Positions 3,051-10,963 of a stretch of DNA of 10,963 bases are shown here, piece by piece. Numbering within the stretch: the stretch's first letter is position 1; each line of letters opens with the position of its first letter. The DNA is taken from NCBI GenBank assembly GCA_030824255.1, contig JAVBYB010000113.1:1-10963 (forward strand), in the 5' to 3' direction. A program made the position numbers and the translations under genes. The notes beneath the pieces are model-generated. The model saw only the letters and a list, made by a program, of their open reading frames with translations, had not been told where the DNA came from and made no database searches. The DNA comes from a bacterium. Its GTDB lineage: Bacteria; Pseudomonadota; Alphaproteobacteria; Caulobacterales; Hyphomonadaceae.

Positions 3051-4079
3051 TTATTCGCCTGCTTCGTCCTCATAGCCGACGAGGTGGAGCGGGCGAGCCT
3101 TGCGACCTTCCAGTTCGGCCCAACGGGCCAGTGCGTCATCCCGGCCATGGGTGACCCACAGCTCGTCCGGGTTAACCTCGCGGACTGTGGTGGTCAGTTC
3201 GTCCCAATCGGCATGGTCGGAGAGGATCAGCGGCAGCTCGATCCCGCCGGCCTTGGCGCGCTGGCGGATATTCATCCAGCCGGAGGCGAAGGCGACAACA
3301 GGGTCCGGGAAACGTTCGGCCCATGGCGTGCTAACGGCGGAGGGCGGGCAGACGATGATCTTGCCGGCGAACCTGGTCTTGTCGCCCCGCGCGCCTTTCT
3401 CCAGCGTCGCGGGTTCAAGCGGGCCAAGATCGACACCCAGCCGCTGATACATTTCGCACAGCGCTGTCATGGCGCCATGAATGTAGATGGTTTCGTTGTA
3501 GCCCGCCCTGCGTAGCTCCTTGATGACGCGCTGGGCCTTGCCGAAGGCGTACGCTCCAACAAGATGCGCGCGGTCCGGAAAGGCGCGAATGGAGGCGAGC
3601 AGCTTGGCGACTTCGCCCGCGCTGTCCGGATGGCGGAAGACCGGCAGAGCGAAGGTCGCTTCCGAGATAAAGATATTGCAGGGCACGACTTCGAAGGGCG
3701 CGCAGGTTGGGTCGGCGCGGCGCTTGTAATCGCCGGTGCAGACCATGGTGAGCCCTTTCCATTGCACTTCGACCTGAGCGGAGCCGATCACGTGCCCGGC
3801 CGGGTGGAGCGTCACCTGAACATCGCCGATCGTATTGGTCTCCCCATAGGGGGCGGCTTGGCGAGACTTTGCGAACTCCTGTCCATAACGGGTGGCCATC
3901 GCCTCGATCGTCTCGGGGGTGGCGAGCACGGCGCCGTGGCCAGCGCGCGCATGGTCTGAATGGCCGTGGGTTACCACGGCGCGGTCAACCCCGCCGCGCA
4001 CAGGGTCGATGTAGAAATCGCCGGGCGGGCAGTAGAGGCCCTTTGGCGTCGGGCAGAGGAGGTCTTCGGGACGGATCAT
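3051..4079 (-). CDS. DNA ligase-associated type exonuclease, metallo-beta-lactamase/beta-CASP nuclease
   Basis: A 342-aa cytoplasmic metal-dependent nuclease of the metallo-beta-lactamase/beta-CASP superfamily. It matches the group annotated as ligase-associated DNA exonuclease, thought to act in DNA end processing and repair. The opening (GLYCPPGDFYIDP, residues 14-26) is typical for that group. Metal ligands are visible: HGHSDH at 38-43, His96 in PAGHVIGSA and Asp117 in CTGDYK. Beta-CASP motif candidates follow: Glu140 in SEATF, His201 in YIHG and His289 in SDHADWDE. It therefore looks catalytically intact. The start fits the family N-terminus although no clear Shine-Dalgarno is seen. Relatives usually sit beside an ATP-dependent DNA ligase and often an Lhr-like helicase and a PdeM-like phosphoesterase; none of these is in the window, where both neighbours are uncharacterised membrane proteins. 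Confidence 0.9.
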   Translation of the reverse strand: MIRPEDLLCPTPKGLYCPPGDFYIDPVRGGVDRAVVTHGHSDHARAGHGAVLATPETIEAMATRYGQEFAKSRQAAPYGETNTIGDVQVTLHPAGHVIGSAQVEVQWKGLTMVCTGDYKRRADPTCAPFEVVPCNIFISEATFALPVFRHPDSAGEVAKLLASIRAFPDRAHLVGAYAFGKAQRVIKELRRAGYNETIYIHGAMTALCEMYQRLGVDLGPLEPATLEKGARGDKTRFAGKIIVCPPSAVSTPWAERFPDPVVAFASGWMNIRQRAKAGGIELPLILSDHADWDELTTTVREVNPDELWVTHGRDDALARWAELEGRKARPLHLVGYEDEAGE

Positions 4080-4121: not shown

Positions 4122-4138
4122 TGACAGCAGCGCTGTCA
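4122..4138 (-). repeat. Perfect 7-bp inverted repeat over a stop codon
   Basis: TGACAGC (4122-4128) and GCTGTCA (4132-4138) form a perfect 7-bp stem with a 3-nt loop. On the minus strand the first three bases of the stem are the TGA stop codon of the membrane-protein gene. No strong T-tract follows, so it is at best a weak terminator; it may instead limit read-through or mark an mRNA end before the exonuclease gene. Confidence 0.5.
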
Positions 4139-5440
4139 TCGCATTCCGATGAAGGAGAGAATGCCGTCGGTGAAGCTCTTTGCTTCGGTTTCAAAAAGCC
4201 TGGCGGCGAAGGGGATCACCGCGGAACCGGCAAAGCCCAGCAACGCAAGCAGTGCGGTGCGTCCATCGCGCTGAGACAGCCATCGGTCGCATTCCAGCGA
4301 TGTTTCGAACGCGACGCCGCGCAGGGTGCCCTTGTCCCGGCGCACAGTGACCAGGCGATTGGCGCGAATGAAGACGAAGAGGCGGTGGTCCGCTTGTTCT
4401 GCTGCAGATGAGTCTTCCTGTGGCGCTGGCCCGATATCCGCCATGTCGCCGTTCTCGATCAGCTGTTGTTCCGGTTGGCCGACCTCTTCAATCAACTTAT
4501 TGAAGCGCTCGTGGAACTCGGCGAGTACGGGCCGATCTTCAACGTTGACGTTGATCAATTGCTGCAGATTACGGAAGCTCTTTCCCATCAGCTCCCGTGA
4601 ATACTCAGGAGAGATCGTACCGTTGGTCGCGATTTCGAGCCGGGCGCATTCGGTTTTGAGGATGCCGAGGTCGTGCGCCTTCTTTACGTCGAAGCGTGTT
4701 CGGCCGACGTAATAGGGAATGATGACGAACATGAGGAACAGGCCGATGACCACGGCCATGCCCATCAGCAGCAGGATCGGTTGGTCTGCAATCTCCTGTT
4801 GCCGGAATGCGTACCACGGATAGCCGACTGTCCATGCGGATACGGCGAAGTGGCTGAAGGAAAATGCCAGCGCATGGATTCGCACCTGCCTGGATGTTTC
4901 CCGTGACAGAAGCTGTATGCCGCGCACGACGTTGGTCAGAACGAATACGATCGCCGTCGGAACTGAGAGAATCCACAAGCCCACGTCGAACAGGCCATCG
5001 GTTGTGGAGATGTCAGTCGAGGTGGATTTCTGGAACGCGAAGTAGACCAGAGCGAACTGGATCAGCAACATCAGGTAGACCAGACCGACCGTCATGCCGA
5101 TATTGCGTTTGCGGAGGAAGAAGCCCTGCAGGACATAAACGTCGTTCGCGCGGCCCTGATTCAGAAGGCCTGCGGCAAGGAAGATTGCGGCGACTGCGCC
5201 GAATCCGACAAGTGCAAGTGGAAATCCGATCGCCAGCAGTTGCCAGGGGAACGATCCTGTCAGCGTAAAGAAGGTGGCCGCCGAGAACACCATGCCCACC
5301 ACGGTGGATGTAAAGGCGTAGAAGATGGTGTTGGGGCCGGCCGGATTCTTCCTGGTCAGCAGAAAGTGCATGACGACGCTGGAGATCAGCAGCATCACCT
5401 GCGTGCCGATAGTCAGCCAACCATTCGGAAAGTCGATCAT
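4136..5440 (-). CDS. Uncharacterised polytopic membrane protein (about 8 helices)
   Basis: I do not recognise the family. From the chosen ATG the product is 434 aa. Probable membrane helices lie near residues 11-28, 39-60, 68-92, 115-136, 153-173, 190-211 and 221-246. A soluble part of about 145 residues (247-393) follows, with helical and acidic segments (AEFHERFNKLIEEV at 307-320; an acidic linker near 327-352). One more hydrophobic segment lies at about 394-414, close to the C-terminus. No enzyme or transporter signature is evident. The frame extends to 5527, but the start MIDFPNGW is preferred because a G-rich GGGGGGA lies just upstream on the minus strand and the helices begin soon after. 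The upstream extension would run into a repeat-rich regulatory region. It may head an operon with the exonuclease gene 56 nt downstream. A sensory or signalling role is only a guess. Confidence 0.75.
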   Translation of the reverse strand: MIDFPNGWLTIGTQVMLLISSVVMHFLLTRKNPAGPNTIFYAFTSTVVGMVFSAATFFTLTGSFPWQLLAIGFPLALVGFGAVAAIFLAAGLLNQGRANDVYVLQGFFLRKRNIGMTVGLVYLMLLIQFALVYFAFQKSTSTDISTTDGLFDVGLWILSVPTAIVFVLTNVVRGIQLLSRETSRQVRIHALAFSFSHFAVSAWTVGYPWYAFRQQEIADQPILLLMGMAVVIGLFLMFVIIPYYVGRTRFDVKKAHDLGILKTECARLEIATNGTISPEYSRELMGKSFRNLQQLINVNVEDRPVLAEFHERFNKLIEEVGQPEQQLIENGDMADIGPAPQEDSSAAEQADHRLFVFIRANRLVTVRRDKGTLRGVAFETSLECDRWLSQRDGRTALLALLGFAGSAVIPFAARLFETEAKSFTDGILSFIGMR

Positions 5441-5675
5441 TGGTCCCCCCACGGGATCGTGACCCGTTGATGAGACATCAGTCGGAAGCGGGCCGCAAGA
5501 GGCCCGTTGACAGGCAGATATCGCCAATCAGGCGAACGCCATGGTTCATCCATGAGAACGCAGGGTCAGCATTACAGGAATGCGGCGAACGTATCTGAGT
5601 GTCGCCTTGAGTTTTCCCTAAATCAGCTGATGCTCGCGCTTGCCCGGTTCTGGGGCGGTGGACACAGGGACGGGT
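5441..5675. promoter_or_regulatory. Divergent regulatory region with clustered short repeats, before the four-gene operon
   Basis: This 235-bp gap lies between the minus-strand membrane-protein gene and the plus-strand HMG-CoA reductase gene, so it should hold promoters for both. It contains a 6-bp stem CGGGCC/GGCCCG with a 6-nt loop (5489-5506), a TCGCC/GGCGA inverted repeat with 5-nt spacer (5521-5535), a CATGG/CCATG inverted repeat of the same geometry (5540-5554), and an 8-bp direct repeat CCCGTTGA at 5463-5470 and 5503-5510. A perfect -35-like TTGACA lies at 5507-5512 on the plus strand, but I see no good -10 at the right distance. These are operator candidates; no regulator gene is nearby. 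Confidence 0.5.
5666..5670 (+). promoter_or_regulatory. Ribosome binding site that sets the HMG-CoA reductase start
   Basis: AGGGA lies five bases before the ATG at 5676. The alternative in-frame TTG at 5640 has no comparable site, so the ATG is preferred and the product becomes 428 aa. Confidence 0.65.
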
Positions 5676-6962
5676 ATGCCAAGCGCATTCGAGGCCGCAA
5701 AGCGAATGATTGCGGCCGTACTGTCCGGGCGTACGCATGCCGATCTCGACAGGCAGAGCCGGCCAGACACGACAACACCGCTGAAGCCCTGGATCCGTCC
5801 GGCCAAGCATCTGGAGCCGACATTCACGGCGGCCAATTGGAGAATTCTGCTCGCGAACTCTGGCGCGGGAGAGGCGGACAAGTCGGAGCTTTATGACGCT
5901 CGGGCACAGGAGCAGATGGAGCGCTACGAGCACAACATCGAGAATTACATCGGCACGCTGCGCTTGCCTGTGGGCGTTATCGGCCCACTGCGGGTGAACG
6001 GCATTTTCGCCAAGGGTGACTATTACGTGCCGCTGGCGACGACGGAAGCCGCTCTGGTCGCCAGTTATGGGCGTGGCGCACGACTGATCTCGTCGGTTGG
6101 CGGAGCGACGACGGGGACGCTTGCCGAAGGTGTGCATCGTTCGCCGGGATTTGCGTTCGCGTCGACGACAGAGGCGGGACTGTTCGTCGCCTGGGTGATC
6201 GGCGCTTTTGACATGCTGAAGGAAGTTGCAGAGACGACAACGCGGCACGGCAAGCTGGTTGAGCTGAGCCCACACCTGGAGGGCGACCACGTCTATCTGG
6301 TGTGCAGCTATACGACGGGCGATGCCGCTGGACAGAACATGGTGACAATCGCGACGGAGGCTGTGTGTCGGGCCATCGAAGCGCATTCACCCGTTAAACC
6401 AACTTACTGGTTCGTCGAAGCCAACTTTTCGGGGGACAAGAAGGCGTCTGCCATGTCCTTTCTGGGCGTGCGCGGGCGGAAGGTCACGGCATCTGTCGAG
6501 CTGCCGGGCGCAGAGATCGAGAAACAACTTCATACGACGCCCAAGCGGATGGAAGACTATTGGCGCATGTCGGCGCTGGGCGGTGTGATGTCTGGCTCGA
6601 TAGGCGTGCAGGGCCACTATGCGAATGGTTTGGCCGCCCTGTATCTCGCGACGGGACAGGATGCCGCGTGTGTGGCGGAGAGCGCAGTGGGGGTGACGCG
6701 CATCGAGTTGCGCGAAGGTAACCGGCTGTTCGTGTCCGTGACGCTGCCCAATGTGATTGTAGGCACGGTCGGCGGCGGCACCGGCTTGCCGACGCAAGCT
6801 GCGGGATTGAATATTCTTGGCCTCAAAGGCGCCGACAATGCGCGGGCGTTTGCAGAGGTGATCGCGGCGGTGTGTCTCGCGGGGGAGCTGTCGATCATCG
6901 GGGCGTTGTGTTCGCACGAGTTCGCGAGCGCGCACAAGAACCTCGCGCGAGGCAAGGCGTGA
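5676..6962 (+). CDS. HMG-CoA reductase, class I-like, soluble
   Basis: A homologue of 3-hydroxy-3-methylglutaryl-CoA reductase, which reduces HMG-CoA to mevalonate with two NAD(P)H. The 428-aa product has only the catalytic domain, without membrane anchor. Conserved blocks resemble class I enzymes: ENYIG (89-93), PVGVIGPL (98-105), PLATTEAALVAS (119-130) with catalytic Glu124, DAAGQNM (216-222), NFSGDKK (250-256) with the catalytic Lys255 region, GQDAA (327-331) with Asp329, VGGGTGLPTQ (365-374) and the C-terminal catalytic His420 in FASAHKN. All four residues used in catalysis appear present, so it should be active. Its GTGA overlap with the prenyltransferase gene makes it the first gene of an operon. 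Most alphaproteobacteria make isoprenoids by the MEP route, so a role in a specialised pathway, or on a related acyl-CoA, is likely. No other mevalonate genes are visible. Confidence 0.92.
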   Translation: MPSAFEAAKRMIAAVLSGRTHADLDRQSRPDTTTPLKPWIRPAKHLEPTFTAANWRILLANSGAGEADKSELYDARAQEQMERYEHNIENYIGTLRLPVGVIGPLRVNGIFAKGDYYVPLATTEAALVASYGRGARLISSVGGATTGTLAEGVHRSPGFAFASTTEAGLFVAWVIGAFDMLKEVAETTTRHGKLVELSPHLEGDHVYLVCSYTTGDAAGQNMVTIATEAVCRAIEAHSPVKPTYWFVEANFSGDKKASAMSFLGVRGRKVTASVELPGAEIEKQLHTTPKRMEDYWRMSALGGVMSGSIGVQGHYANGLAALYLATGQDAACVAESAVGVTRIELREGNRLFVSVTLPNVIVGTVGGGTGLPTQAAGLNILGLKGADNARAFAEVIAAVCLAGELSIIGALCSHEFASAHKNLARGKA

Positions 6963-7924
6963 GCGAAATCGCCAAGGCACACTCTAGCGAGCCGCGGGCA
7001 ACTTTTGTTGTGCGCCTGTGGCAGTATCAGGCTGAGCGTTTCCCGTTGGTCAAACATGGGGCGCTGATAGCGGCTTTTGGCGCGTCTGCGGTTTGCCTGT
7101 CGGCATTGTTGCGGGGGGCGGCTCCGAACCCTGTGGCAATCCTTGTTGCTGTGCTGGTGCTGTTTGGATTCTTCGTCCAGCTCCGCGTCGCCGACGAGCA
7201 CAAGGACAATGAGGATGATGCAAGGTTTCGCCCCGAGCGGCCCGTGCCGCGGGGTCTTGTCACACTGGCTGAGTTGAGGGGTGTCGCGATTGCGGTCGGC
7301 GCGGCGCAGCTTGCGCTGACAGCGTGGCTGGACTGGACATTGATTGTCTTCGTGCTGGCGGTTTGGGCGTACATGGCCGTGATGACGAAGGAGTTCTTCG
7401 TTCCGAAATGGCTCAAGGCGCGGCCGATCATCTACATGGTCAGTCACATGCTGATAATGCCACTGATCGACCTGTTTGCGACCGCATGCGACTGGCATCC
7501 GGCTGGCGTGGCGCTGCATGAGGATTTCGGGCTCACACTTGGCGCGTTCCTGCTGCTGTCACTTGTGAATGGCGCAGCGATAGAGATCGCGCGCAAGAGC
7601 TGGGCGCCGGAGACGGAGCGCGAGGGCGTCGAGACATATTCGAAGCTCTGGGGGGCCGGCGTGGCCGGTGTTGTCGTGATGGCTATTGTGCTGGCTGGCT
7701 TCGGGCTGGCGGCGTTCATCAATGTGAGGTCTGAGGCAGGACTGTGGGTGCTCGGCGGGCTCGCGCTGGTTACTGCCTGGACATCCTGGTGCGCCATCGA
7801 TTTTGCGGGGACGCCTACGTCGAAGACATCCAAAGTTCTTGAAACCTCGAGTGGGGTCTTTGTGCTGGCGAACTACCTGTTGCTCGGCGTGATCCCGCTA
7901 TTGCTGTCGCTGGTCTCCGCATGA
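6959..7924 (+). CDS. UbiA-superfamily membrane prenyltransferase, divergent subgroup
   Basis: A 321-aa integral membrane protein with about nine hydrophobic helices, the size and layout of the UbiA superfamily, which transfers prenyl groups from prenyl diphosphates to aromatic, glycerol-phosphate or other acceptors. The first Mg-diphosphate motif is clear, with Asp79, Asp83 and Asp87 in VADEHKDNEDD, followed by RPERPVPRG (91-99), a typical UbiA loop. The second region is unusual: EIARKSWAPETEREGVETY (209-227) keeps the GVxT-like turn but has Glu209 and Lys213 where classical enzymes have an Asp-rich DxxxD. The start is a GTG inside GTGA, overlapping the HMG-CoA reductase stop; the longer frame from 6872 lies within that gene and is rejected. 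The end overlaps the dikinase gene by ATGA. Acceptor and prenyl chain are unknown; operon context hints at a lipid. Confidence 0.86.
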   Translation: MSEIAKAHSSEPRATFVVRLWQYQAERFPLVKHGALIAAFGASAVCLSALLRGAAPNPVAILVAVLVLFGFFVQLRVADEHKDNEDDARFRPERPVPRGLVTLAELRGVAIAVGAAQLALTAWLDWTLIVFVLAVWAYMAVMTKEFFVPKWLKARPIIYMVSHMLIMPLIDLFATACDWHPAGVALHEDFGLTLGAFLLLSLVNGAAIEIARKSWAPETEREGVETYSKLWGAGVAGVVVMAIVLAGFGLAAFINVRSEAGLWVLGGLALVTAWTSWCAIDFAGTPTSKTSKVLETSSGVFVLANYLLLGVIPLLLSLVSA

Positions 7925-10419
7925 GCGAGACGAAACAATATGTGCTTACAGGTGACGCCGTGCTGTCCTCCGCACTGGCAGGCGGCAAAGGTGCGGCGCT
8001 CGCAAGGCTGGCGGCGACATTTCCGGTGCCGGCTTTCTTTGTCATTTCAGCGGACGCATTCAACAAGGATGGGTTGAAGACATTCGCGGCGGCTGCCGTG
8101 CTTCAAGGGGTATTGCAGCTCGGCGGATCGAACTTGTTTGCCGTCCGGTCTTCCGGATTGGAAGAAGATGGGGCCGCAAGCGCCCATGCGGGACAGTTCG
8201 CAACTGAGCTGAATATAACCGGCGAGGATGTGGCTGCGGCGGCGCATCGCGTATGGCTCTCCGGGTTTACGGACACGCTCGCGCAATACCGGCGGGCACA
8301 TGGACTCTCGGGCGAGCCGCAGCCGCCGGCCGTGATTGTTCAGGTGATGGTGAAGGCGCGCGCGGCGGGCGTGGCGTTCTCGGCCGACCCGGTAACAGGC
8401 GATCGCAACGTCGTGGTCATTAGTGCGATTGCAGGTCTCGCAGACAAGCTGGTGGGCGGCGAGGAGGACGGCGACAGCTATAGGGTTGCGCTGGATGGAA
8501 CAACCATTGAGGCCGAGCTGATCGGCGAGGTCTCGGTTCTCACGGATGCCGAGCGGGCAGCGGTCGCAGCGATGGCCCGACAGGCGGAGGCGCATTTCGG
8601 GTCGCCGCAGGATATCGAATGGGCGTTTGATGACGGCGGTCTCAACATGCTGCAGTCCAGACCGATCACGACACTCGGATCCATAGTGCAGGCTGCGTTC
8701 CAGGATGATGACGTCGTAATCTGGGACAACTCCAATATCGTCGAGAGCTATCCGGGCGTTACATCGCCGCTGACCTTCTCATTTGCTCGATATGTCTACA
8801 GTCATGTCTATCAGGCGTTCTCCAGGCTGATGGGGGTTCGGGATGAAAATGTCGAAGAGCATCGTGCTGTTTTCGAGAACATGCTGGGGCGTGTGGATGG
8901 GCGGATTTATTACAACCTGTTGAACTGGTACCGCGCGCTGGCGCTGTTTCCCGGGTTCAAGGCTAACCGCGCGTTCATGGAGAACATGATGGGCGTGTCC
9001 GAAGCGCTGCCGCAGGAAATGGCGGACCGGATCGCACAGCCGTCAACGAGCGGGTGGGAGCGGTTTGCGGACAACCTGAAGTTTGCACGCGTGGGCTGCG
9101 GCCTGATCTGGCATGAGGTGCGCATCCGCAGGACGATTGCGCAATTCTACGAGCGCCTGAATGAAGCGCTGGCGCGGCCGGACGCGGAGATCGACGGCAT
9201 GTCGGCCGTGGCGCTGGCGGCTGAGTACCGCCTGCTGGAGCGCAGGCTGCTGGCGAAGTGGGATGCGCCGCTCGTCAACGACTTCCTCTGCATGATCGCG
9301 TTCGGCGCGGCGCAGAAGGCGCTTGGCAAATGGGCCGGCGATGATGGCCTCGCCTTTCTCTCGTCCATGCTGATCGGTCAGGGCGATATCGTGTCTGCTG
9401 AACCTGCGAGGATGATCCGCGCCATGGGCGCTATCGTGCGCGGGCGAACTGATGTGATTGACCGGCTGCGTGCGGGCGATCGGACGGCTGTGCATGATCT
9501 GCCGCGGCTGGGCGCAGCGTTCGATGCCTATATCGCGAAATTCGGCGACCGGTGCACGCAGGAGCTGAAGCTTGAGAGCCGAACACTGCACGAGGATGCA
9601 ACGCAGGTGCTGATGGCCATCGCGGCGGCTGCCGATACTCGCAAGGAGGCGGCGGAAGCGGAGCAGGCGCAAGACCTGCATTTGCTTATTCCGGGTTTTG
9701 GACAGCGCGTGATTGCGCGATGGCTTCTGCAATGGGCAAAAGCGCGCGTACGGGACCGGGAGAACCTGCGTTTCGAGCGGACGCGTTTGTTCGGGCGTGT
9801 GCGGCGCATTTTCGTGGCGCTGGGCGCGCGCTTTACCGAGGCCGGCGTGCTGGATGACCGCCGCGACGTCTTCAATCTTACGGTTGATGAACTGCTGGGT
9901 GCGGTCGAAGGCGCGAGCCTGACGAATGATCTGCGCTCGCTGGCCCGACAAAGGGAGCGCGAATTGCGTGACCAGATGGCGCGGCCAGATCCGCCTGAAC
10001 GATTTAGCGTGCGGGGCGCGCATATTACGGGTGTCGCTGGGTTAGAGGCGCAGGCATCATCGACGGGTGAGGGCGGAGAAATCCGCAAGGGTCTCGCCTG
10101 TTGCAAAGGCGTTGTTGTTGCGAAAGTGCGCGTGATCGATGATCCGCGTGTGGAGGCGCTTTCGCCAGGCGAGATTCTGGTTGCGCGCCATACCGATCCG
10201 GGCTGGATCGCGGTCTTCGCCAACGCGGCCGGCGTGATCGCGGAGCGAGGATCATTGCTGTCTCACTCCGCGATTGTGGCGCGTGAGATGGGCGTGCCCT
10301 GCGTCGTGTCGCTTAAAGGTGTTACGCAATGGCTGAAGACGGGGGATACAGTGCGTCTGGACGGCGGGGCTGGAACGGTCGAACGGATGGCTGCTGGGAC
10401 AACGGAGAAAGCCGGATAG
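7921..10419 (+). CDS. ATP-grasp/phosphohistidine dikinase, rifampin-phosphotransferase-like architecture
   Basis: An 832-aa soluble enzyme related to PEP synthase and pyruvate phosphate dikinase. The N-terminal ATP-binding domain (about 1-255) shows GGKGA (21-25), VRSSG (75-79), GVAFSADPVTGD (150-161), QDIEWAF (230-236) and QSRPIT (245-250). The C-terminal swivelling domain (about 720-820) carries the phospho-accepting His782 in GSLLSHSAIV. There is no C-terminal PEP-binding TIM barrel. Instead roughly 450 residues, starting with WDNSNIVESYPGVTSPLTF (268-286), lie between the two domains. This order (ATP domain, substrate domain, His domain) is that of rifampin phosphotransferase. By analogy it would phosphorylate a hydroxyl on its substrate using ATP, giving AMP and phosphate. 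Being in the middle of this operon, its substrate is more likely a pathway intermediate than an antibiotic. PEP synthase is an unlikely function. It is coupled by ATGA to the prenyltransferase gene. Confidence 0.9.
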   Translation: MSETKQYVLTGDAVLSSALAGGKGAALARLAATFPVPAFFVISADAFNKDGLKTFAAAAVLQGVLQLGGSNLFAVRSSGLEEDGAASAHAGQFATELNITGEDVAAAAHRVWLSGFTDTLAQYRRAHGLSGEPQPPAVIVQVMVKARAAGVAFSADPVTGDRNVVVISAIAGLADKLVGGEEDGDSYRVALDGTTIEAELIGEVSVLTDAERAAVAAMARQAEAHFGSPQDIEWAFDDGGLNMLQSRPITTLGSIVQAAFQDDDVVIWDNSNIVESYPGVTSPLTFSFARYVYSHVYQAFSRLMGVRDENVEEHRAVFENMLGRVDGRIYYNLLNWYRALALFPGFKANRAFMENMMGVSEALPQEMADRIAQPSTSGWERFADNLKFARVGCGLIWHEVRIRRTIAQFYERLNEALARPDAEIDGMSAVALAAEYRLLERRLLAKWDAPLVNDFLCMIAFGAAQKALGKWAGDDGLAFLSSMLIGQGDIVSAEPARMIRAMGAIVRGRTDVIDRLRAGDRTAVHDLPRLGAAFDAYIAKFGDRCTQELKLESRTLHEDATQVLMAIAAAADTRKEAAEAEQAQDLHLLIPGFGQRVIARWLLQWAKARVRDRENLRFERTRLFGRVRRIFVALGARFTEAGVLDDRRDVFNLTVDELLGAVEGASLTNDLRSLARQRERELRDQMARPDPPERFSVRGAHITGVAGLEAQASSTGEGGEIRKGLACCKGVVVAKVRVIDDPRVEALSPGEILVARHTDPGWIAVFANAAGVIAERGSLLSHSAIVAREMGVPCVVSLKGVTQWLKTGDTVRLDGGAGTVERMAAGTTEKAG

Positions 10420-10421
10420 CC

Positions 10422-10963
10422 ATGGCCGAAACCGATATCGCCAAACGCGCCAAATTCGACATCATCCGCTATGCGCAGGTGTGGGAGGATGCAGATATCC
10501 TCGTTGCCGCGTTGCGTCCGGGCCCCGGCGACACCGTGGTCTCGATCGCATCTGCGGGCGACAACGCGTTTGCGTTGCTGGCGGAGGGTGCTGAGCGCGT
10601 GATCGCGGTCGATCTCAATCCGGCGCAGCTTGCCTGCGTCCGTCTGAGGATGGCGATGTACAGGATCCATACGCACGACGAATTCCTGGAGCTGATGGGG
10701 TCGCGGTCTTCCGGGCGTCGCAAACACCTGCTGGAGCAGGCGGCAGCGACGCTGTCTGCCGAGGATCAGGCGTTCTGGGCCGAGCAGAAGGACGATGTGG
10801 CCAAGTACGGGATTGGCGGCGTCGGCAAGTTCGAACGCTACTTTCGCATTTTCCGCGAGTGGGTTGTGCCTTTCATCCATACGCGTGAGACGATCGATGA
10901 ACTGTTGAGCCCGCGCGATCCGGCCGACCGGGAACGCTTCTACGATAAGCGTTGGAACAACTG
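10422..10963 (+). CDS. DUF3419/BtaA-like SAM-dependent aminocarboxypropyltransferase, partial (3' end beyond window)
   Basis: The frame is open from an ATG two bases after the dikinase stop to the window end, giving 180 residues of a protein that in this family is about twice as long. It matches the DUF3419 family, whose known member BtaA moves the 3-amino-3-carboxypropyl group of S-adenosylmethionine to diacylglycerol, giving diacylglycerylhomoserine for betaine lipids. Visible hallmarks are IRYAQVWEDADIL (15-27), the SAM-binding SIASAGDNAFALL (41-53), the acidic loop AVDLNPAQLACVRL (62-75) and GKFERYFRIF (135-144). A GGAG lies at 10404-10407, 14 nt before the ATG, and coupling to the upstream gene is likely. 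In this operon the acceptor may be a prenylated or phosphorylated lipid rather than ordinary diacylglycerol. A BtaB-type methyltransferase could lie downstream, outside the window. Confidence 0.88.
   Translation, partial: MAETDIAKRAKFDIIRYAQVWEDADILVAALRPGPGDTVVSIASAGDNAFALLAEGAERVIAVDLNPAQLACVRLRMAMYRIHTHDEFLELMGSRSSGRRKHLLEQAAATLSAEDQAFWAEQKDDVAKYGIGGVGKFERYFRIFREWVVPFIHTRETIDELLSPRDPADRERFYDKRWNN

Follow-up and report, generated by a model that had tools for sequence, protein, structure and literature searches.

The locus studied here raises the question of what an HMG-CoA reductase, a UbiA-superfamily membrane protein, a dikinase and a DUF3419 protein could be making together. The window analyzed is an entire contig of 10,963 bases, from an assembly that is 73% complete and divided into 589 contigs, and its closest relatives are titled Hyphomonadaceae. 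The four genes lie within it as follows:

5676-6962, + strand: HMG-CoA reductase (HMGR) of class I type, first gene of the operon (428 aa; PF00368, E 9e-109)
6959-7924, + strand: UbiA-superfamily membrane protein with a GTG start (321 aa; PF01040, 34.1 bits against a cut-off of 34.2)
7921-10419, + strand: PEP-synthase/RPH-like dikinase (832 aa; PF01326 (PPDK_N), E 1.2e-46; PF00391 (PEP-utilizers), E 4e-25)
10422-10963, + strand: DUF3419 protein, BtaA-related, first 180 of about 365 aa (PF11899, E 2.4e-41, model positions 4-177 of 385)

All four frames are open. As read on the sequence, stop and start overlap as GTGA between HMGR and UbiA (6959-6962) and as ATGA between UbiA and the dikinase (7921-7924), and a 2-nt gap (TAG-CC-ATG, 10417-10424) separates the dikinase from DUF3419; the HMGR start at 5676 is consistent with relatives of 428 residues. 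The domain matches together with this reading confirm the original prediction of four plus-strand genes joined by GTGA, ATGA and 2-nt junctions. The genes and their tight packing thus stand, but the predicted size of the operon does not, because the contig end truncates DUF3419 and the operon appears four genes long for that reason only. In relatives, full-length copies of DUF3419 are followed by three more genes, giving the order HMGR-UbiA-dikinase-DUF3419-KIN-GNAT-AMPL, the last three of which would be expected past the end of the window. KIN is a phytol/dolichol-kinase-like membrane protein, GNAT a GNAT-like acyltransferase, and AMPL an OleC-like AMP-binding ligase.

In a first comparison of 14 neighbourhoods of relatives, KIN, GNAT and AMPL came after DUF3419 wherever the contig continued. 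A UbiA alignment yielded 194 relatives in named genomes, from which the best 80 loci were taken by UbiA alone, and partner-gene profiles, each built on 3 to 5 copies from the window's taxonomic order, were run over all frames of these loci. Within the best 80 of the 194, the loci with room for the gene concerned contained the dikinase in 76 of 76 cases, DUF3419 in 69 of 69, KIN in 66 of 67, GNAT in 63 of 66, AMPL in 60 of 62 and HMGR in 61 of 69, and the complete seven-gene set was present in 52 of the 58 loci with room for it. Wherever the seven genes occurred among all 80 loci, whatever their room, they were in identical order on a single strand (59/59). The median intergenic gap in the loci is -4 at five of the six junctions and -8 at the sixth, with the start codons picked by script. 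As the loci were picked by UbiA similarity alone, the recurrence of the same genes near UbiA indicates an association beyond chance.

Co-occurrence across phyla was the check that the original prediction had proposed, and the seven genes were indeed kept together in nine phyla by locus titles (Pseudomonadota, Gemmatimonadota, Chloroflexota, Planctomycetota, Verrucomicrobiota, Acidobacteriota, Melainabacteria, Eremiobacterota and Elusimicrobia), in loci that are non-independent, because many Rhodobacterales rows are close kin, and many of which are MAGs. Prevalence of the cluster is low and patchy, and a search of 72,556 plasmid records returned one plasmid copy, on a Roseinatronobacter plasmid. 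Cultured carriers of the complete set include Roseovarius nubinhibens ISM, Ruegeria halocynthiae DSM 27839, Neomegalonema perideroedes DSM 15528 and Sulfitobacter undariae DSM 102234. For a Burkholderiales MAG (L065), the most similar cluster is that of a locus titled Akkermansia (L097; UbiA 60%, DUF3419 66%), which suggests transfer between phyla, and the best reading is that the cluster moves horizontally as the gene set of one dedicated pathway. The further claim that no characterised pathway has these genes agrees with the literature searched (with few subscription papers and no bioRxiv preprints), which shows no description of one; the four papers in it that mention DUF3419 include nothing on this gene set, as judged by title. 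A lipid with a homoserine-type head group, the product suggested by the original prediction, is still an inference, so that this prediction is supported in part. No cluster representative scanned scored over a curated NCBIfam cut-off among the matches listed, and the one annotated cluster copy bears generic gene names only. We estimate at roughly 0.9 the probability that the seven genes constitute one dedicated, membrane-associated biosynthetic pathway.

Departures from the seven-gene arrangement were also found. HMGR is missing upstream of UbiA in 8 of 69 loci (L046, L051, L057, L060, L065, L078, L108 and L109), L047 has UbiA, dikinase and DUF3419 only, and by the profiles used L062 is without GNAT and AMPL and L098 without GNAT. 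Lone UbiA relatives (256-276 bits), with no partner gene adjoining, were detected in three genomes of one genus of the window's taxonomic order (L169, L170 and L171), in one of which the contig ends 0.6 kb away from UbiA. Beside them is a TolC/ABC-exporter-like gene set, its genes named by eye; these lone proteins may be the stock from which the cluster UbiA came, or what remains of it. In the one-contig genome G023 (L028:6866-11684), HMGR and the dikinase are each broken into two frames, by either sequencing error or decay.

The UbiA protein has 15 invariant residues across 45 rows, including D79, D83, D87, E209, R212, K213 and E220. Its clear UbiA fold and first acidic motif are shared with archaeal DGGGP synthase (6m31, the best PDB sequence match, E 3e-6) and other UbiA prenyltransferases. 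The second acidic motif of UbiA prenyltransferases is DxxxD; when E209, R212, K213 and E220 were set against it by reading, the motif appeared altered in the cluster protein, so that prenyl transfer is uncertain. Unlike the archaeal system, moreover, the cluster contains no other archaeal ether-lipid gene, as judged by its families.

The cluster dikinase has the ATP-binding and phosphohistidine domains of PpsA, RPH and the PigC/RedH dikinases, and 71 proteins show conservation of at least 95% at R76, E82, D83, D231, E233, R247 and H782; we take the roles of these residues to be catalytic, with H782 as the phosphohistidine. It differs from those enzymes in scoring under every NCBIfam cut-off among the matches listed (best 643.3 bits, 883 needed) and in being fused to DUF3419 in three lineages, where both proteins are full-length in one frame (L039, Hyphomonadaceae; L054, Coxiellaceae; L078, Obscuribacter). 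These fusions suggest that both act on one intermediate. The earlier description of the protein as an RPH-like dikinase holds for its PPDK_N and PEP-utilizers domains, but identity as an RPH equivalog is ruled out by a score of 236.6 bits against an NCBIfam cut-off of 999.

Alignment of cluster DUF3419 proteins (28 rows) with BtaA-type proteins (9 rows) gave 19 columns in common, presumably those of the SAM site. Identity between the two groups is 19-29% (mean about 24%), compared with 38-79% and 46-99% within them; the cluster proteins thus share a domain with BtaA of BtaA/BtaB betaine-lipid synthesis but form a distinct subfamily. A separate BtaA-type gene (334-380 bits) is present in 10 of 42 cluster genomes, and inspection by eye of the five loci listed placed a BtaB-like methyltransferase beside it in L115 and L121. 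A phmmer search with the L115 BtaB-like protein at E 1e-5 found no BtaB relative in 96 cluster stretches.

Regarding the last three genes, KIN has 424-449 aa in most copies and 222-289 aa in some. Most members have no Pfam match, DUF92 being found in 2 of 43 and PF01148/PF01940 occasionally, and the fold match is weak. Among the matches listed, 120 rows include relatives named phytol kinase (25), dolichol kinase (3) and diacylglycerol/polyprenol kinase (2), and these names, like the occasional Pfam matches, liken it to CTP-dependent dolichol/phytol kinases. In the GNAT-like acyltransferase (265-328 aa), the GNAT domain was recognised in 4/4 distant copies and 0/2 closer copies scanned. The best curated matches of AMPL (461-569 aa) are PRK09274 (264.1 against 478 bits) and the OleC beta-lactone synthetase (141.9 against 900 bits), both far under their cut-offs, and its assignment as an OleC equivalog was accordingly rejected on the NCBIfam threshold; nor was an OleA, OleB or OleD gene noticed in passing in the cluster. 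F151-T-S-G154, G157 and K460 are at least 95% conserved in 66 AMPL proteins, and we assume catalytic roles for F151-G154, G157 and K460. AMPLs are similar in genomes with and without HMGR (56% between L097 and L051).

As in the mevalonate pathway, the cluster HMGR is a class I reductase (best PDB match 6hr7, E 9.8e-83), in which E89, D254-K255-K256, D329 and H420 are at least 95% conserved across 62 cluster proteins; E89, K255, D329 and H420 are presumably the catalytic residues. What the original prediction missed is that this reductase occurs without the remaining genes of that pathway. HMGR (PF00368) is present in 37 of 42 cluster genomes and IspH in 40 of 42, whereas HMG-CoA synthase (PF01154 and PF08540) was detected in none of the 42, with controls positive in 7/14 each, and mevalonate-diphosphate decarboxylase scored over the cut-off in one (G534; 5/42 at E 0.001). 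These counts indicate that the cluster HMGR is probably not feeding IPP, and we regard it as likely that it serves something other than IPP synthesis. The HMG-CoA synthase result may be partly a detection matter, since the two models failed to pick up a synthase in G534 as well, although later genes of the mevalonate route are present there. Leucine breakdown is a possible origin of HMG-CoA.

Three of the genomes carry a reductase outside the cluster. In G534 (Coxiellaceae SSA3), a second reductase adjoins the decarboxylase in an operon separate from the cluster, with apparent mevalonate kinase, phosphomevalonate kinase and prenyl synthase genes, as identified by eye. Lentibacter has a second reductase beside a relative of the AMP ligase. 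The Anaerolineales genome G555 has no IspH, a decarboxylase match that stays below threshold (111.7 bits) and a reductase away from a cluster that is itself without HMGR; this housekeeping reductase could supply mevalonate. These three reductases fall into a single group, separate from all 60 of the cluster (100/100), in a tree with long branches and a bootstrap that is not settled. Five of the 42 cluster genomes (two Melainabacteria, one Burkholderiales, one Chloracidobacterium and one Elusimicrobia) yielded no HMGR anywhere, and one of them, also without IspH, may be incomplete. Mevalonate is thus not obligatory unless supplied from elsewhere, and nothing found here in these five genomes constitutes such a source.

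Concerning the product, we give even odds to a dedicated lipid-type pathway with a reductase that does not serve IPP, and consider the presence of an aminocarboxypropyl group on a lipid-type product to be equally balanced. The likely chemistry of each step is taken from fold and conserved residues, and we infer the order of the steps and their substrates. UbiA would couple an acceptor with an isoprenoid chain, and alcohol intermediates would be phosphorylated by two enzymes, the dikinase and the CTP-kinase-like KIN. DUF3419 would transfer the 3-amino-3-carboxypropyl group of SAM to a hydroxyl of the same intermediate, giving a homoserine-ether group, the amine of which would be acylated by the GNAT protein. 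Mevalonate made by HMGR would enter the product and not IPP, which would come from the MEP route, and AMPL would activate it: an OleC-like ligase suits beta-hydroxy acids, of which mevalonate is one, and is therefore the likeliest enzyme for this step. From these reactions one would expect an unusual lipid of the amino-, phospho- or isoprenoid type. That mevalonate is the acid activated by AMPL is a tentative and doubtful proposal, the main argument against it being the five genomes without HMGR. We hold with similarly low confidence the complete version, in which this interphylum operon would build mevalonate itself, not IPP, into a new membrane lipid, with an N-acylated aminocarboxypropyl (homoserine-ether) group on an isoprenoid/phospho lipid joined to mevalonate.

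Two variant loci, each a single case, bear on the head group. L109 (1-12067) has the order AMP-binding/carrier/reductase protein, SDR, SAM synthetase, broken DUF3419, KIN, formyltransferase, AMPL, UbiA and dikinase, with SAM synthetase adjoining DUF3419, the formyltransferase replacing GNAT and the dikinase truncated by the contig end. L033 (5811-12659) is a distant five-gene variant with a dikinase, DUF3419, a UbiA (26-29% identical), a GNAT-like protein and a gene of the PS-decarboxylase family. The formyltransferase and SAM synthetase of the former and the PS-decarboxylase-type gene of the latter are consistent with acylation of an amine and with a lipid head resembling an amino acid.

Other explanations for the operon were considered. 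The families of HMGR and UbiA both belong to isoprenoid metabolism, and the operon might simply boost ordinary isoprenoid supply, HMGR providing mevalonate for IPP, and UbiA and the kinases a quinone-like product. The conserved catalytic residues of HMGR, the genuine mevalonate genes of G534 and the sub-threshold decarboxylase match of G555 are in its favor; we consider it improbable, given the HMG-CoA synthase, decarboxylase and IspH counts, the fact that mevalonate genes, where present, have their own reductase, and the lack of any role for DUF3419, GNAT and AMPL. Salvage of phytol or geranylgeraniol followed by prenyl conjugation, in which the dikinase and KIN would take the prenyl alcohol to the diphosphate in two steps, UbiA would attach this to an acceptor and the other genes would decorate the acceptor, is supported by the names of the KIN relatives and by DUF92 in two KIN proteins. 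Those names are annotations and not tests, HMGR is left unexplained, and L047 retains the dikinase and UbiA without KIN, all of which makes this scheme rather unlikely.

A soluble siderophore-like metabolite is an unlikely product as well, although the AMP ligase adjoins GNAT with HMGR in the same operon, and AMPL could by analogy activate mevalonate that GNAT would pass to an amine. In fungi, SidI and SidF are reported to act in this way with mevalonyl/anhydromevalonyl-CoA (PMC3709128). The likeness of a ligase and an acyltransferase beside a mevalonate source is a working analogy, organisms and products differ, UbiA and KIN are predicted integral membrane proteins, and no siderophore receptor or NRPS was recognised by eye among the neighbouring families recurring in at least six loci. 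Finally, membership of the same Pfam family and the 19 common columns would be compatible with DUF3419 taking the part of BtaA in a variant of betaine-lipid (DGTS) synthesis. We judge this highly unlikely because of the low identity to BtaA-type proteins, the failure of the BtaB-like query to match any of the 96 cluster stretches at E 1e-5, and the separate BtaA-type genes, with their BtaB-like neighbours in L115 and L121.

The window also has, divergent from HMGR, a 463-residue membrane-protein-like frame (4136-5527, - strand) that matched nothing in Pfam, NCBIfam or PHROG. None of the 14 neighbourhoods compared contains a relative of it, and in several of them a lipocalin-like gene stands at this position. 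The gene at 3051-4079 (- strand) encodes a ligase-associated DNA damage response exonuclease (NCBIfam, 464.4 bits against a cut-off of 325). Of 82 loci compared, 11 have a member of a cytochrome P450 family near the cluster and 7 a member of a sulfotransferase family (L064:6285-7556, L055:7562-8677), possibly as tailoring genes or as chance neighbours.

Seven enzymes whose order is the same across nine titled phyla should yield a useful product, and so compact a gene set puts that product within reach of gene deletion combined with mass spectrometry in strains that can be cultured. If the reductase serves a product other than IPP, this would explain the presence of HMG-CoA reductase in bacteria whose IPP is MEP-derived.
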